A stretch of 64,000 nucleotides of DNA from Phytoseiulus persimilis (Eukaryota > Arthropoda > Arachnida > Mesostigmata > Phytoseiidae), in NCBI GenBank assembly GCA_037576195.1, contig CM075103.1:10106001-10170000 (forward strand), in the 5' to 3' direction. Position numbers and translations under genes: made by a program. Positions 27,728 through 61,893 of the stretch are shown here, piece after piece. The first letter of the stretch is position 1; every line of letters starts with the position of its first letter. The notes below the pieces were generated by a model. That model saw only the letters and a list, made by a program, of their open reading frames with translations. It was not told where the DNA came from and ran no database searches.

Positions 27728-29423
27728 AAAGCTATATTGTCGTTTCGACAGAGGAAATGTAATAAATCATCGCTTATGATCCTTCTCATAGACATGTCAT
27801 CTGTCGATTTGATCCGTTCACTCGCGGAATGATTCCGTCGTGCGTTAGTGTGATCAATACATTTCACTCCTCCCTGACTCAACTAGCCTGAGATATCTTC
27901 TCTCGTAGACTAGTGTTCTAGTTCTTGCGTTCATATTGATCGTGTGCTCCGAACAGTTCAAGCGATCGAACCTCCCAATAATATCTCACTCTCGCGCAAA
28001 AGGAGGAAAAGTCCATCGATGAAAGCCAAGGTGAATTGATAGAATTGAATTCACTCCAATATTTGGTGGCGTAGCATCTTGCCTTTGCCACAGTGGGACA
28101 ACGAGCTTGTTGGGGAGATATACTCTCCCGCTTCGCAGACTCCGAGGGTACCCAGGGCTCATGCTCCATGGCAAACTCTGGGCTGGATATCCCTGGGCGT
28201 CTCACGGCAGGCAAAACATTGGCGGTCGGAGATGACACATCGCGCTTCTCTTCCATTTCGATACTGATTGAGGAAGCATAGTGCTGTCAGTCGCTCATAG
28301 ATGGTCTCCTGATGAGCTGATTCCATTGGTTTGCCTTGGACGCTCGTATCTCCCATTATTCTGAACGTTTCCTCCCATCTGATTCTTTTCCTCCCGAGTG
28401 TCGACCGCGGGTCAACAATGCATCGTGTGGGGGTGTTTCGAAATCCTCGAGTATGAGTTTGTTGAAAATAATCTGAAATATGCCGAAATGTGAACTGAAT
28501 CGAGAAAATGTAGTATCCGATGAGTAGTTCAATCGTGCTCCATCCGACGATCGAGCTCGACGGAGGTCTCTAAATACCGAGGAAGAATTCAGATATCGCC
28601 TGCCGTGATAACCAGGTCTAATACTACGGAACCGGTTCTATTCTATAGAAAACGTATGGCGACGAATCCGATGTCATAGGTACAGAAAAAGTATTTCTGC
28701 TACATATTTCTCCGACAAAATCTCGTCCTGGATGTGTCTCCCCCGTATCTTCCCAGGCAATGCTGAGCTCGAACAAAATTCAGACGCCGAAAAGTTCTCG
28801 GAGAAAAGTCAGACGCCGAAAAGTTCTCGGAGAAAAGTCAGACGCCTAGAAGTTTTGGAAAAAAATTCAGACGCCGGGAAGTTCTCGCAGAGAATTCAGA
28901 CGCCGGAAGTTCTCAAATTGATCCAAACTATGTAGTTGCCGTTTCGATCCGACTGTTTTTCCGGGTCGTCTTCCTAGGGACCTGCAACTGGATCAAAGTG
29001 ATTTCCGGGCGAAAAAAAAGTTATTGGACCGAGGCGGAGGCCGACGAGTAGTTTGAATTTTGACAAGACATCAGCGCTTTTCAGGCTTATACTATCGCTT
29101 GCGCATTTCCGAGATCTGTAGCGATACTCGCTCTGTTCGATTGAAAGGTGAGCTATCCTTCTCCGAATGGGATCGTGCAAATTCGATCGGTTCATTCGGG
29201 GAGTTTCCCGTCTGCTTCGGTGGAACGATCCAAGAAAAAAGAAGAATGACTTCTGACGCGTTCTCGAGAATGCAATCCCCCAACGATCGGCGCGAATTGG
29301 AAACCAAGAAAACGCACCATATTGCCCGTTACCGATCACAGGAAAGGAATGGAACTATGACATTCGATTCGAGTCCATTTTTAATGAAATTCTCAATTAA
29401 GACGGATCCGCTTGAAGAGGAAG
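27728..29423. other. Intergenic stretch between PSMA2 and the membrane protein gene
   Basis: No coding exon is supported. It holds the PSMA2 poly(A) signal (27761-27766) and one 29-bp tandem repeat (28781-28914). The two flanking genes converge here. Confidence 0.5.
28781..28914. repeat. 29-bp tandem repeat, about 4.6 copies
   Basis: The unit begins CAGACGCCGAAAAGTTCTCG and is 29 bases long. The first two copies are identical and the later ones carry substitutions and small gaps. It is not related in sequence to the 45-bp satellite at 51-56 kb. Confidence 0.85.
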
Positions 29424-50820: not shown

Positions 50821-53800
50821 CCAGCCGGCCTTTGGCCGACTGGAGTCGGCCGCGCTGCGCGCGCTTGGACGGCGCTCCCTGCCATCGAGGCACTTTTCTC
50901 TCCCTTCACTGGGTTAGCATTCCAACTTTGAAAAGTATGCTCAGATTGGTCTCGGAATCACCCCTTCAGAGTTGGGAAGTAATGCTCAGATTGAGCCCGG
51001 AATCACCCCTCCAGAGTTGGAAAGAAATGCTCAGATTGGTCTCGGAATCACCCCTCCAGAGTTGGGAAGTAATGCTCAGATTGGTCTCGGAATCACCCCT
51101 CCAGAGTTGGGAAGTAATGCTCAGATTGGTCTCGGAATCACCCCTCCAGAGTTGGGAAGTAATGCTCAGATTGGTCTCGGAATCACCCCTCCAGAGTTGG
51201 GAAGTAATGCTCAGATTGGTCTCGGAATCACCCCTCCAGAGTTGGAAAGTGATGCTCAGATTGGTCTCGGAATCACCCCTCCAAAGTTGGAAAGTGATGC
51301 TCAGATTGGTCTCGGAATCACCCCTCCAGAGTTGGAAAGTGATGCTCAGATTGGTCTCGGAATCACCCCTCCAGAGTTGGAAAGTGATGCTCAGATTGGT
51401 CTCGGAATCACCCCTCCAGAGTTGGGAAGTAATGCTCAGATTGGTCTCGGAATCACCCCTCCAGAGTTGGGAAGTAATGCTCAGATTGGTCTCGGAATCA
51501 CCCCTCCAGAGTTGGGAAGTAATGCTCAGATTGGTCTCGGAATCACCCCTCCAGAGTTGGGAAGTAATGCTCAGATTGGTCTCGGAATCACCCCTCCAAA
51601 GTTGGAAAGTGATGCTCAGATTGGTCTCGGAATCACCCCTCCAGAGTTGGAAAGTAATGCTCAGATTGGTCTCGGAATCACCCCTCCAAAGTTGGAAAGT
51701 GATGCTCAGATTGGTCTCGGAATCACCCCTCCAGAGTTGGAAAGTGATGCTCAGATTGGTCTCGGAATCACCCCTCCAGAGTCGGGAAGTAATGCTCAGA
51801 TTGGTCTCGGAATCACCCCTCCAAAGTTGGAAAGTAATGCTCAGATTGACCCCGGAATCACCCCTCCAGAGTTGGAAAGTAATGCTCAGATTGACCCCGG
51901 AATCACCCCTCCAGAGTTGGAAAGTAATGCTCAGATTGACCCCGGAATCACCCCTCCAGAGTTGGGAAGTAATGCTCAGATTGACCCCGGAATCACCCCT
52001 CCAGAGTTGGAAAGTAATGCTCAGACTGACCCCGGAATCACCCCTCCAGAGTTGGAAAGTAATGCTCAGATTGGTCTCGGAGTCACCCCTCCAGAGTTGG
52101 GAAGTGAAGCTCAGATTGGTCTCGGAATCACCCCTCCAGAGTTGGGAAGTGATGCTCAGATTGGTCTCGGAATCACCCCTCCAAAGTTGGAAAGTAATGC
52201 TCAGACTGACCCCGGAATCACCCCTCCAGAGTTGGAAAGTAATGCTCAGATTGGTCTCGGAGTCACCCCTCCAGAGTTGGGAAGTGAAGCTCAGATTGGT
52301 CTCGGAATCACCCCTCCAGAGTTGGGAAGTAATGCTCAGATTGACCCCGGAATCACCCCTCCAGAGTTGGAAAGTAATGCTCAGACTGACCCCGGAATCA
52401 CCCCTCCAGAGTTGGAAAGGAATGCTCAGATTGGTCTCGGAGTCACCCCTCCAGAGTTGGGAAGTGAAGCTCAGATTGGTCTCGGAATCACCCCTCCAGA
52501 GTTGGGAAGTGATGCTCAGATTGGTCTCGGAATCACCCCTCCAGAGTTGGGAAGTGATGCTCACATTGGTCTCGGAATCACCCCTCCAGAGTTGGGAAGT
52601 GATGCTCAGACTGGTCTCGGAATCACCCCTCCAGAGTTGGGAAGTGATGCTCAGATTGACCCCGGAATCACCCCTCCAGAGTTGGGAAGTGAAGCTCAGA
52701 TTGGTCTCGGAATCACCCCTCCAGAGTTGGGAAGTGATGCTCAGATTGGTCTCGGAATCACCCCTCCAAAGTTGGAAAGTAATGCTCAGATTGACCCCGG
52801 AATCACCCCTCCAGAGTTGGGAAGTGATGCTCAGATTGGTCTCGGAATCACCCCTCCAGAGTTGGGAAGTAATGCTCAGATTGACCCCGGAATCACCCCT
52901 CCAGAGTTGGAAAGTAATGCTCAGACTGACCCCGGAATCACCCCTCCAGAGTTGGAAAGTAATGCTCAGATTGGTCTCGGAGTCACCCCTCCAGAGTTGG
53001 GAAGTAATGCTCAGATTGACCCCGGAATCACCCCTCCAGAGTTGGGAAGTAATGCTCAGATTGACCCCGGAATCACCCCTCCAGAGTTGGAAAGTAATGC
53101 TCAGACTGACCCCGGAATCACCCCTCCAGAGCTGGAAAGTAATGCTCAGATTGACCCCGGAATCACCCCTCCAGAGCTGGAAAGTAATGCTCAGATTGAC
53201 CCCGGAATCACCCCTCCAGAGCTGGAAAGTAATGCTCAGATTGGTCTCGGAGTCACCCCTCCAGAGTTGGGAAGTGATGCTCAGACTGGTCTCGGAATCA
53301 CCCCTCCAGAGTTGGGAAGTAATGCTCAGATTGACCCCGGAATCACCCCTCCAGAGTTGGGAAGTGAAGCTCAGATTGGTCTCGGAATCACCCCTCCAGA
53401 GTTGGGAAGTGATGCTCAGATTGGTCTCGGAATCACCCCTCCAAAGTTGGAAAGTAATGCTCAGATTGACCCCGGAATCACCCCTCCAGAGTTGGGAAGT
53501 AATGCTCAGATTGACCCCGGAATCACCCCTCCAGAGTTGGAAAGTAATGCTCAGACTGACCCCGGAATCACCCCTCCAGAGTTGGAAAGTAATGCTCAGA
53601 TTGGTCTCGGAGTCACCCCTCCAGAGTTGGGAAGTGAAGCTCAGATTGGTCTCGGAATCACCCCTCCAGAGTTGGGAAGTAATGCTCAGATTGACCCCGG
53701 AATCACCCCTCCAGAGTTGGGAAGTAATGCTCAGATTGACCCCGGAATCACCCCTCCAGAGTTGGAAAGTAATGCTCAGACTGACCCCGGAATCACCCCT

Positions 53801-55991
53801 CCAGAGTTGGGAAGTAATGCTCAGATTGACCCCGGAATCACCCCTCCAGAGTTGGGAAGTGATGCTCAGATTGGTCTCGGAATCACCCCTCCAAAGTTGG
53901 AAAGTAATGCTCAGATTGACCCCGGAATCACCCCTCCAGAGCTGGAAAGTAATGCTCAGATTGGTCTCGGAGTCACCCCTCCAGAGTTGGGAAGTGATGC
54001 TCAGATTGGTCTCGGAATCACCCCTCCAAAGTTGGGAAGTGATGCTCAGATTGGTCTCGGAATCACCCCTCCAAAGTTGGAAAGTAATGCTCAGATTGAC
54101 CCCGGAATCACCCCTCCAGAGTTGGAAAGTAATGCTCAGATTGGTCTCGGAGTCACCCCTCCAGAGTTGGGAAGTGATGCTCAGATTGGTCTCGGAATCA
54201 CCCCTCCAGAGTTGGGAAGTGATGCTCACATTGGTCTCGGAATCACCCCTCCAAAGTTGGAAAGTAATGCTCAGATTGACCCCGGAATCACCCCTCCAGA
54301 GTTGGAAAGTAATGCTCAGATTGGTCTCGGAGTCACCCCTCCAGAGTTGGGAAGTGATGCTCAGATTGGTCTCGGAATCACCCCTCCAGAGTTGGGAAGT
54401 GATGCTCACATTGGTCTCGGAATCACCCCTCCAGAGTTGGGAAGTGATGCTCAGACTGGTCTCGGAATCACCCCTCCAGAGTTGGGAAGTGATGCTCAGA
54501 TTGACCCCGGAATCACCCCTCCAGAGTTGGAAAGTAATGCTCAGACTGACCCCGGAATCACCCCTCCAGAGTTGGGAAGTGATGCTCAGACTGACCCCGG
54601 AGTCACCCCTCCAGAGTTGGGAAGTGAAGCTCAGATTGGTCTCGGAATCACCCCTCCAGAGTTGGGAAGTGATGCTCAGATTGGTCTCGGAATCACCCCT
54701 CCAGAGTTGGGAAGTGATGCTCACATTGGTCTCGGAATCACCCCTCCTCGTTTTGAAAAGTATGGTCAGATCGGTTACAGAATCACCCCTCCAGAGTTGG
54801 AAAGTAATGCTCAGACTGACCCCGGAATCACCCCTCCAGAGTTGGAAAGTAATGCTCAGACTGACCCCGGAATCACCCCTCCAGAGTTGGGAAGTGATGC
54901 TCAGACTGACCCCGGAGTCACCCCTCCAGAGTTGGGAAGTGAAGCTCAGATTGGTCTCGGAATCACCCCTCCAGAGTTGGGAAGTGATGCTCAGATTGAC
55001 CCCGGAATCACCCCTCCAGAGTTGGAAAGTAATGCTCAGACTGACCCCGGAATCACCCCTCCAGAGTTGGAAAGTAATGCTCAGACTGACCCCGGAATCA
55101 CCCCTCCAGAGTTGGGAAGTGATGCTCAGACTGACCCCGGAGTCACCCCTCCAGAGTTGGGAAGTGAAGCTCAGATTGGTCTCGGAATCACCCCTCCAGA
55201 GTTGGGAAGTGATGCTCAGATTGGTCTCGGAATCACCCCTCCAGAGTTGGAAAGTAATGCTCAGATTGACCCCGGAATCACCCCTCCAGAGTTGGAAAGT
55301 AATGCTCAGACTGACCCCGGAATCACCCCTCCAGAGTTGGGAAGTGATGCTCAGACTGACCCCGGAGTCACCCCTCCAGAGTTGGGAAGTGAAGCTCAGA
55401 TTGGTCTCGGAATCACCCCTCCAGAGTTGGGAAGTGATGCTCAGATTGACCCCGGAATCACCCCTCCAGAGTTGGAAAGTAATGCTCAGACTGACCCCGG
55501 AATCACCCCTCCAGAGTTGGGAAGTGATGCTCAGACTGACCCCGGAGTCACCCCTCCAGAGTTGGGAAGTGAAGCTCAGATTGACCCCGGAATCACCCCT
55601 CCAGAGTTGGGAAGTGATGCTCAGATTGGTCTCGGAATCACCCCTCCAGAGTTGGGAAGTGATGCTCACATTGGTCTCGGAATCACCCCTCCTCGTTTTG
55701 AAAAGTATGGTCAGATCGGTTACAGAATCACCCCTCCAGAGTTGGAAAGTAATGCTCAGACTGACCCCGGAATCACCCCTCCTCGTTTTGAAAAGTATGG
55801 TCAGATCGGTTACAGAATCACCCCTCCAGCTTTCAAAATGTATAATCAGACTCGTACCGGAATCACCTCTCCAGACTCGGGACAGTATGGTCAGATTGGT
55901 CCCGGAATCACCCTCATGTCTTCCAGAAAAAGTGCGGACAAACAGACAAACTGACAAACTTACAGACGAAGCCGATTATATATAGTAAGGA
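50821..55991 (-). mobile_element. Non-autonomous Helitron with expanded 45-bp minisatellite, copy 1
   Basis: Read on the minus strand, the element starts TCCTTACTAT (55991) after an A. It ends CTGG (50824-50821) before a T, the canonical Helitron termini and A|T target. A perfect hairpin, GGCCGACT, loop CC, AGTCGGCC, ends nine bases before CTGG. Homology to the copy at 61434-61893 starts and stops at these points, within one or two bases of flanking A/TA. Between the ends lies a 5-kb tandem array. There is no Rep or helicase protein, so transposition would need an enzyme supplied elsewhere. The length is 5,171 bases against 460 for the sister copy, almost all of the difference being array. 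Confidence 0.88.
50936..55920. repeat. 45-bp minisatellite array, about 110 units
   Basis: The unit is 45 bases (core GGAATCACCCCTCCAGAGTT). Two main variants alternate, one with ATTGGTCTCGG and one with ATTGACCCCGG. The left 900 bases are nearly pure GGTCTC type; from about 51840 the two types mix in recurring multi-unit blocks. Three copies of a diverged unit (CCTCGTTTTGAAAAGTATGG) lie near the right end at about 54748, 55690 and 55780. Because 45 is divisible by three and the unit lacks stops in several frames, giant open frames run through it on both strands (plus 50814-55985 and 50972-55954; minus 55957-50966). I do not regard them as genes. Confidence 0.97.
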
Positions 55992-56542
55992 TCACATGGG
56001 ACCCAGTTCCTGGGGCGATTGCGTTCAGCGGATCTCTCGGGTTTCATTCTCCCATTTTTCCAGGGTCTTCTCGTATCCCTCCATGTCTCCTGTCTGCACT
56101 CCTCAGTCAGACCCAGTCTTCTAGCGAGTTCTTCCGTCTCGGGTTGATTGGTGACACATCTATATATATAAAAATCCAGGGTCTGTTTGTTTGTTTGTTT
56201 GTTTGTCCTCAATAGGCTCCTCTGGTATTGAGGAGTCCAGGCCTTAGAGCACGTGAAAGACTATTACAGTTGGAAATGCATGCAAAATGCCGCTAGCACC
56301 CGCCGCTTTTTTTCTTGATCTCCTCTTCGAGCTCGGGAGGATATGTAGTGGTTTCCAACGCTGCCAGGCTCTCACTTGGAGGTTTGAACGAGGTCTTGAT
56401 GAAGACGGTATCTTTTGAGTATTTCTTTCGGCCAGAAGAATTTCAAGACATTCGCGTGATAGCGAAGCAATACCGGGTGGGTTCTGTCTATCCGGGGAGC
56501 ATTGAGTCGGAAGATGTGCATCTCAGTTCCAGTCGGGTGCCC
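55992..56542. other. Stretch between the Helitron and the hAT element
   Basis: It holds the short repeat at 56157-56194 with its TTTG run and otherwise nothing recognisable. Confidence 0.45.
56157..56194 (+). repeat. Short conserved repeat with TTTG run
   Basis: CATCTATATATATAAAAATC is followed by CAGGGTCTGTTTGTTTG and more TTTG units. It matches the minus strand at 47690-47651. Similar TTTG-rich sequence also occurs just inside the Helitron's TC end, so a shared ancestry is possible but not shown. Confidence 0.6.
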
Positions 56543-56621
56543 GTCAACTGGGCCCCGGCGTCAACTGGGCTTCGCCGTCAACTGGGCCATGGCGTCAACC
56601 GGGCCACGGGGTCAACAGGGG
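56543..56621 (+). repeat. 17-bp tandem array, left, of hAT element
   Basis: Four to five units of GTCAACTGGGCCACGGC type in tandem. The same unit in inverted orientation forms the array at 59912-59996, on the other side of the hAT transposase. This arrangement suits subterminal repeats that bind transposase. Confidence 0.8.
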
Positions 56622-58978: not shown

Positions 58979-59063
58979 ATTTTCCGTTATAACGGAAATA
59001 CTATTTTCCGTTATGCGTTATAACGGAAATACTATTTTCCGTTATGCGTTATAACGGAAAATA
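58979..59063. repeat. Tandem palindromic repeat, GTTATAACGGAAA type
   Basis: TTTTCCGTTATAACGGAAA, itself an inverted repeat, is followed by two units of about 33 bases, each again containing TTTCCGTTATGCGTTATAAC and GGAAATACTA. The array lies inside the hAT element between the transposase stop and the middle 17-bp array. It could form stable hairpins. Confidence 0.8.
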
Positions 59064-60838: not shown

Positions 60839-61133
60839 GTCTGTTTTTCGGCTGAACCTCTCAGCCAGCCCTCAGGAGTGTCCCGGATTCACCTTTCGGT
60901 ATTGCTTCAGTAACACTCCCTATCGCCTCGCAAATCCCATTGCGGGCGGTGGGCTTGGGTCTTAAGATGGTTCAGATTTAATTCTGATATAAATTAAATC
61001 CTCTTTTTACCACATAAGAAATTTGTTGTCCCGGCCGGGGATCGAACCCGCGATTGCTAGCTTAGCGTGGCACCCAAGGCGTTGGTTTATGCCACACGGC
61101 CAACGAGCCGACTACACGGCCAACGAGCCGACT
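60839..61133 (-). mobile_element. tRNA-derived SINE, copy C, with 15-bp target duplications
   Basis: The third copy, on the minus strand, with B box GGTTCGATCCC and the same body and stem-loop. Perfect 15-bp duplications GTCTGGATTTCACCT lie at 60824-60838 and 61134-61148. Its 5' head carries an extra tandem copy of about 19 bases (CACGGCCAACGAGCCGACTA on the plus strand), a duplication the other two copies lack. Confidence 0.93.
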
Positions 61134-61433: not shown

Positions 61434-61893
61434 TCCTTACTATTTATAATCGGCTTAGTCTGTCAGTTTGTCCGCACTCCGTCGAGAATTCTGGGACCAA
61501 TCTGACCATACTCTCCCAAGTCTGGAGAGGTGACTCCGGTACGAGTCTGACTATACTTTTCAAAAGCTGGAGGGGTGATTTCGGAATCGATCTGACCATT
61601 ACTTCCCAACTCTGGAGGGGTGATTCCGAGACCAATCTGGGCATTTCTTTCCAACTCTGGAGGGGTGATTCCGAGACCAATCTGAGCATTACTTTCCAAC
61701 TCTGGAGGGGTGATTCCAAGACCAATCTGAGCATTACTTTCCGACTCTGGAGGGGTGATTCCGAGACCAATCTGACCATATTTTTCAAAATCAGAATGCT
61801 GAACCACAAGGGAGAGAAAAGTTCCTCGATGGCAGGGAGCGCCGTCCATCCGCGCGCAGCGCGGCCGACTCCAGTCGGCCAAAGGCCGGCTGG
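61434..61893 (+). mobile_element. Non-autonomous Helitron, short copy 2
   Basis: It starts TCCTTACTATTTATAATCGG after an A and ends with the GGCCGACT-CC-AGTCGGCC hairpin, nine bases, and CTGG before a T. Both ends agree with the long copy in opposite orientation. About eight 45-bp units, several diverged, fill 61495-61795. At 460 bases it is close to the minimal form of the family. Confidence 0.88.
61495..61795. repeat. 45-bp minisatellite array in short Helitron, about 8 units
   Basis: The same unit as the 5-kb array, in the opposite orientation. The outer units are diverged: one end has TTTTCAAAAGCTGGAGGGGT and the other CATATTTTTCAAAATCAG. Inner units are close to the GGTCTC variant. A 139-codon open frame runs through it by the same stop-free effect. 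Confidence 0.93.

Follow-up and report, generated by a model that had tools for sequence, protein, structure and literature searches.

The minus-strand element at positions 50821 to 55991 of the 64,000-nucleotide window analysed here (Phytoseiulus persimilis, C3:10106001-10170000 of a 181-Mb assembly in 127 contigs) is assigned, with a probability of about 0.9, to the canonical non-autonomous Helitrons, probably mobilised in trans by a Rep/Pif1-helicase Helitron having termini in common with it. This main copy is 5171 bp long and runs from 55991 (5') to 50821 (3'); its ends, internal minisatellite array and flanks were read directly. The original prediction of a Helitron, made from the letters of the window alone, is supported by the A and T flanks, the termini, the range of array lengths, paralogous empty sites devoid of duplication and an element with Rep and helicase domains.

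Direct reading of the 5' terminus (55967 to 55991, minus strand) gives TCCTTACTATATATAATCGGCTTCG immediately after an A. The 3' terminus (50821 to 50880, minus strand) is made up of the palindrome GGCCGACTCCAGTCGGCC, nine bases and CTGG, with T as the next base; it reads ...GTCGGCCAAAGGCCGGCTGG, and its final bases beyond the palindrome are ...GGCCAAAGGCCGGCTGG, adjoined by this T. The CTRR ending and a palindrome just upstream of it are thus both present, in the order GGCCGACTCCAGTCGGCC, AAAGGCCGG, CTGG, and the end is predicted to fold into a 10-bp stem which includes the CTGG. A single 45-bp minisatellite of 110 units lies between the termini (50933 to 55913, minus strand), with divergent edge units and a more homogeneous interior. 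Tandem Repeats Finder (TRF) reports 110.7 units with 91% matches, covering 96.3% of the element length, in agreement with the share of about 97% proposed earlier.

Both ends recur throughout the genome well beyond chance. The 14-mer AAAGGCCGGCTGGT, which comprises the 3' end and its T, has 207 exact matches as compared to 6 for the reversed control, while its first 13 bases with a base other than T after them have 8 (4 in the reversed control); T therefore adjoins 207 of 215 exact 3' ends (T to non-T, 207:8). Similarly, the 5' TC terminus TCCTTACTATATATAATCGGCTT preceded by A has 212 exact matches as compared to none in the control and follows another base at 9 places, so that A precedes 212 of 221 exact 5' ends (A to non-A, 212:9). 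These values agree with the many A- and T-flanked loci that had been anticipated. As only exact matches were counted, copy numbers are lower bounds, and the family has at least about 200 copies. T also adjoins the 3' end in all eight loci retrieved with a query from inside the element, one of which is the window copy itself.

A preference is also evident further downstream, where T-N5-AT is found after 97 of the 207 exact 3' ends, as compared to about 12 by expectation; the binomial value of 3e-63 treats related copies and duplicates with the same flank as independent, which they are not. At 15 of these 97 places, counted by eye (L030 and L004 are examples), the 3' end is followed by TTATATAT, the sequence that is left when a copy lands in a 5' end of its own family, which indicates repeated self-insertion. 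The signal persists in 82 of 192 places when self-insertions are removed. Right flanks (38 distinct, most of them chosen by T at +1) are A/T-rich from about +6 to +11, and among 18 left flanks only the A stands out (17 of 18). No conservation outside the ends was recorded in the flank profiles beyond the first ~11 flank bases, save for a few same-flank pairs of 3' ends (C1:47151442/47154239, C1:22548891/22550702 and C3:9744012/9756221), which are probably segmental duplicates of insertions.

The mode of insertion was examined at paralogous empty sites within the genome. L020 lies within a dispersed repeat, and its joined flanks match uninterrupted in 39 of the 40 places listed (40 scored of 72 candidates; 88-98% identity), the 40th match being the occupied site itself. 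Several of these places are paired at a distance of about 7 kb, and the host repeat may therefore have long terminal repeats. L022 sits in an early array unit of another copy, between CCAA and TCTG, and its flanks rejoin to a continuous unit, while one L030 copy lies in the 5' end of another copy, its flanks rejoining to that 5' end. No target-site duplication was found at L020, L022 or L030, the three insertions with an informative empty site. The original prediction had expected neither such duplications nor homology running past the ends; the latter was likewise not seen in the flank profiles, apart from the same-flank pairs.

Array size was followed in 20 loci, which account for the 22 places at the head of the list of 3' ends; they were chosen by the 3' end and its T and hence provide no evidence for the T, and only units in the orientation of the element were scanned. 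In 19 of these 20 loci, chosen by the 3' end alone, 45-bp units lie beside the 3' end. Copies with both ends found carry 5 to 110 units, with a mean of 42 per copy (17 copies), and the fetched part of L017 alone carries 175, so that the fetched arrays span the predicted range from a few to over 100 units. In 27 of 33 end records, of which the one from L006 duplicates the window copy, exactly 151 bp separate the 3' end from the start of the last matched unit core; as the loci were sampled via Helitron ends, the arrays are bounded on at least one side. Pairing of exact ends in unfetched loci gave 31 pairs from 84 of 100 listed 3' ends, with lengths of 510-11,030 bp and a median of 2,512 bp, a few of which may span nested copies; the other 53 listed 3' ends have no exact 5' end within 15 kb.

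The 45-bp unit pattern, with at most two mismatches, has 54,559 genome matches as compared to none in the control, so that the units account for 1.36% of the genome, about 2.46 Mb in all. A coding role of the array was rejected. Two frames of the window array are open over 1660 codons, yet stop-making variants among 350 distinct units are about as frequent as expected in the six frames (seen/expected 4/3.3, 4/3.3, 6/5.0, 3/4.2, 8/8.4 and 8/6.7), and the array therefore displays no sign of coding.

When the arrays were compared as strings of unit types, one mismatch being allowed, the first five units were found to be common to L028, L029 and L036, with four of the five also present in L025 and the first four in L032; the last two units are common to all five copies. 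Their interiors differ in both order and number (51 units in L028, 33 in L029, 36 in L036, 57 in L025 and 43 in L032), and the last 110 bp are identical in L025, L029, L032 and L036, L028 differing at one base. The window copy with its 110 units likewise differs from L007 (24 units) and L008 (28 units) at 1 of the last 110 bp, and equal unit numbers were recorded in none of 17 close pairs (at most one difference in the last 90 bp). Blocks of identical units are repeated in L017 (16 units, offset 29), L021 (11 units, offset 25) and L033 (18 units, offset 21), as compared to maxima of 7, 0 and 0 units in 100 shuffles each, and a repeated block of 5 units is present in L022 (0 in its shuffles). 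The array is passed on with the element, with conserved edges and an interior that turns over at least partly by block duplication, and the unit number changes far faster than the end sequence. The earlier description of the Helitron as a vehicle that spreads satellite DNA is supported by these arrays, which travel with the element and share edge units between copies. In the proposed mechanism, the array is copied along with the element on transposition, as indicated by the edge units and the part of the unit order common to copies. Its interior gains and loses multi-unit blocks, and this may take place in the donor, at the stage of the circular intermediate or once the copy has been inserted.

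Helitron_like_N has 101 matches in the genome, and the autonomous Rep-helicase element with matching termini that had been anticipated is likely represented by C3:24444287-24453759, a candidate protein source by which the window family would probably be mobilised in trans, judging from the similarity of the ends. It consists of five family 5' ends, a 54-unit array of the 45-bp repeat, a 1951-codon frame and the 3' end GGCCGAAGGCCGGCTGG followed by T, in that order. Its resemblance to the window copy amounts to 90.7% over 75 bp for the best of the five 5' ends and 93.8% over the last 48 bp. The frame is intact, with the first Met at codon 80, and, scanned as two separate parts without its first 386 codons, displays the domains Helitron_like_N, PIF1 and Pif1_2B (PF14214, E 1e-61; PIF1, E 5.5e-54). 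It also has HxH and YxxKY motifs, which we take to be the signature of an HUH Rep with two tyrosines. The short element may have arisen from a partner-like element by loss of the gene, leaving the 5' end, array and 3' end, with its 3' subterminal part derived from elsewhere.

The stacked 5' ends of the partner (C3:24444287-24444830) follow each other at spacings of 103-128 bp, and one of them is imperfect; short TCCTTA and TCCTTACTA fragments occur between some of them. These modules stop either at ...GGGACCAA or inside the first units, and TCC opens the module that follows. L022 is a same-orientation copy inserted at that very site, and hence a possible precursor of such a stack, which would form by transposition from the outer 5' end to the inner 3' end. 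The stacked-end junction GACCAATCC occurs at 8 genome places (at most one mismatch); with so few places, stacking or insertion at this position of the unit is infrequent.

Six Rep loci, from the nine best of the 101 Rep matches, had their flanks read, and a 45-bp array was found within about 4 kb in all six, the partner included; the other five are located at C3:248 kb, C4:1.886 Mb, C3:24.16 Mb, C3:38.5 Mb and C2:45.17 Mb. The chance of such adjacency is 2e-9 for 3 kb on each side under a rough density model, and somewhat higher for 4 kb. A CTAG-type end, GGCCGAAGGCCGGCTAG followed by T, lies next to the 45-bp array at five of the six loci, and such ends occur at 426 genome places with at most one mismatch, which may include some CTGG variants. 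At C3:235556-253500, a tandem repeat of 12,812-bp units is present, the unit carrying a Rep-Pif1 gene and 45-bp arrays. Its copies are identical at 513 of 514 bases in the stretch compared, and the second Rep match lies exactly 12,812 bp away; head-to-tail joints, in which CTAG is directly followed by TC, are present in the C3:248 kb region. Both the tandem unit and the joints could stem from rolling-circle concatemers or from segmental duplication. The Rep locus at C3:238000-253500 was rejected as the partner of the window family, for a CTAG-type 3' end follows its Rep gene and the neighbouring 5' ends belong to the TCTATATATATAAAAATCCAGGG family.

Several observations count against a canonical Helitron with this partner. 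The hairpin of the main copy is no more stable than shuffled sequences (z -0.90; another fold, z -2.09), so that the 3' signature rests on the palindrome and not on the energy. The 3' similarity of the partner is limited to its last 48 bp, and its 3' flank, TTATATATAGTAAGGA, is the inside of the 5' terminus of another copy; since the left flank does not fit that site, the locus is considered rearranged or nested. The empty sites are all paralogous and come from one genome, and one L020 paralogue reads A then C, not A then T, at the junction. The search for an empty site of the main copy itself was uninformative: its joined flanks gave 40 listed matches, 3 of the left flank only and 37 of the right flank beginning within 2 bases of the junction, each class including the locus itself once. 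As these matches cover one flank each, they reveal only that the right flank (window 55992-56052) is a dispersed repeat, present at 36 other places among the 40 matches listed. Of the 17 copies taken as complete, L025 matches poorly at its 5' end and one from L030 terminates in CTAG. L034 has no array beside its 3' end, and L026 a single unit. The window array has repeated blocks of only five units, a length also reached by a shuffle, and L028 has none. Exact-ended copies, moreover, account for only about a sixth of the 54,559 units, some 8,700 (207 ends with ~42 units each); copies whose ends are altered, the second (CTAG) family or free arrays must contain the remainder.

This small share, together with the occurrence of arrays with irregular spacing, would also be expected if the minisatellite were an independent satellite DNA that Helitrons had repeatedly captured or entered, the termini being incidental. 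Such an origin is very improbable in view of the exact 151-bp distance between the last unit core and the 3' end in 27 of 33 end records, and the CTAG-type ends that adjoin 45-bp arrays at five of the six Rep loci indicate that a second Helitron family holds more of the units. Satellite-carrying relatives in oyster and Drosophila have been assigned to the Helentron/HINE (DINE-1-like) elements (PMC7492417, PMC4067079), and the same class could be considered here instead of the canonical one. However, insertion occurs between A and T and not between T and T, as evident from the A before nearly all exact 5' ends, and the ends are TC and CTRR. No endonuclease family was found among the Pfam matches (E at most 0.001) of the frame parts scanned, which begin after codon 386 in the 1951-codon frame and after codon 80 in a 1682-codon frame. 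Membership of this class is regarded as extremely improbable. Ordinary slippage, or unequal or template-switch exchange between units, is a reasonably probable source of the block changes, while a step tied to rolling-circle replication can be put forward tentatively; amplification of the array by such replication, one of the two suggestions of the original prediction, is possible.

It is somewhat doubtful that transposition itself changes the array length, slippage or block re-replication during rolling-circle replication giving each insertion a new length. The lack of equal unit numbers in all 17 pairs with near-identical ends, the three long arrays with duplicated blocks offset by 21-29 units, and the tandem 12.8-kb Rep unit on C3 with its head-to-tail junctions of CTAG and TC agree with it. 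However, slippage or unequal exchange of the ordinary kind, acting after insertion, predicts the same pattern, segmental duplication may account for the tandem Rep unit, and the correlation of end divergence with length ratio is weak (Spearman 0.24, 136 non-independent pairs), as expected if length drifts with time. It is rather unlikely that the array length is re-drawn at every transposition, with the Helitron generating minisatellite alleles and its own array and 5' end serving as landing pads; if true, the Helitron would be a generator of minisatellite alleles and satellite DNA, beyond a mere carrier.

DINE-1 and DINE-TR1 of Drosophila belong to the Helentron class, and their sequence and termini differ from those of the window family. 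The Drosophila elements are alike in that internal tandem repeats of a rolling-circle element feed satellite DNA (PMC4067079). Non-autonomous rolling-circle elements with internal satellite arrays have been established in oyster (PMC7492417, PMC8268682) and are reviewed in PMC12628747. Cg_HINE of Crassostrea gigas is likewise a non-autonomous rolling-circle element which has central satellite-like arrays, disperses tandem repeats, and displays paralogous empty sites and no target duplication (PMC7492417, PMC8268682). It differs in being of the Helentron class with TT as the preferred target, as compared to the canonical ends and the A-T site found here, and in its maximum array of 9 to 48 monomers in all but one of 11 satellites inspected, as compared to more than 175 units here. 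Its authors could not link it to an autonomous partner (PMC7492417), whereas a likely partner has been found for the present family.

Truncated tandem Helitrons of plants resemble the present loci in having several 5' ends with a single 3' end and in forming rolling-circle tandem arrays, but their repeated unit is a truncated Helitron and not an internal 45-bp unit (Xiong et al. 2016, as described in PMC12628747). Several stacked 5' termini with one 3' terminus are also reported for Helitrons of Fusarium oxysporum, where self-insertion and a subsequent transposition that starts at the outer 5' end and stops at the inner 3' end are given as the cause; these elements are called non-canonical, and no minisatellite body is mentioned in the accessible text (PMC5148889). 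Helraiser of the bat shares the TC and CTAG ends, the 3' hairpin, the HUH nuclease, the Pif1-like helicase and circles with joined ends, but no tandem-array body is mentioned in the accessible text (PMC4778049). A literature search, mostly confined to papers free of subscription, revealed no description of a canonical Helitron with such an array body and an array-bearing partner, a negative that speaks only weakly for novelty. Array-carrying Helentrons and Helitrons are already known, and the window family is considered an extreme variant with a likely partner.

How transposons seed and enlarge satellite DNA is, in our judgement, a question often argued from decayed remnants. The value of the present family lies in its copies, at least about 200, whose relatedness can be read from the ends, in arrays of a handful to more than 175 units, and in a candidate protein source that itself bears an array. 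With these features, and with about 1.4% of a compact genome occupied by the units, the question whether rolling-circle transposition changes array length becomes directly testable, and the family offers a natural system for the spread and change of satellite DNA by transposons.

The window harbours a second, more diverged copy of the same family (61434 to 61893, plus strand), which is 460 bp long and has a 45-bp array (61500 to 61792, plus strand, TRF) of 6 units by count and 6.5 by TRF. The opposite orientation of the two copies and their TC and CTGG ends, flanked by A (5') and T (3') in both, are as originally described. The further claim that they share both ends exactly holds for the 3' terminal ~40 bp, which are identical, but not beyond, as the 5' end of the second copy has one mismatch in its first 25 bp, and 85 of the last 110 bp are identical.

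Beside the main copy, a 5' end of the related Helitron family, TCTATATATATAAAAATCCAGGG preceded by A, is located at 56159 to 56181 (plus strand); an identical 5' end occurs at the CTAG-TC junctions of the Rep loci. Two 5' ends of this second family thus lie near the main copy, at window 56159 (plus strand) and 47688 (minus strand). Other short tandem repeats in the window are found at 28768-28914 (29-bp units), 56542-56620 (17-bp units), 58985-59060 (31-bp units) and 61094-61133 (20-bp units).

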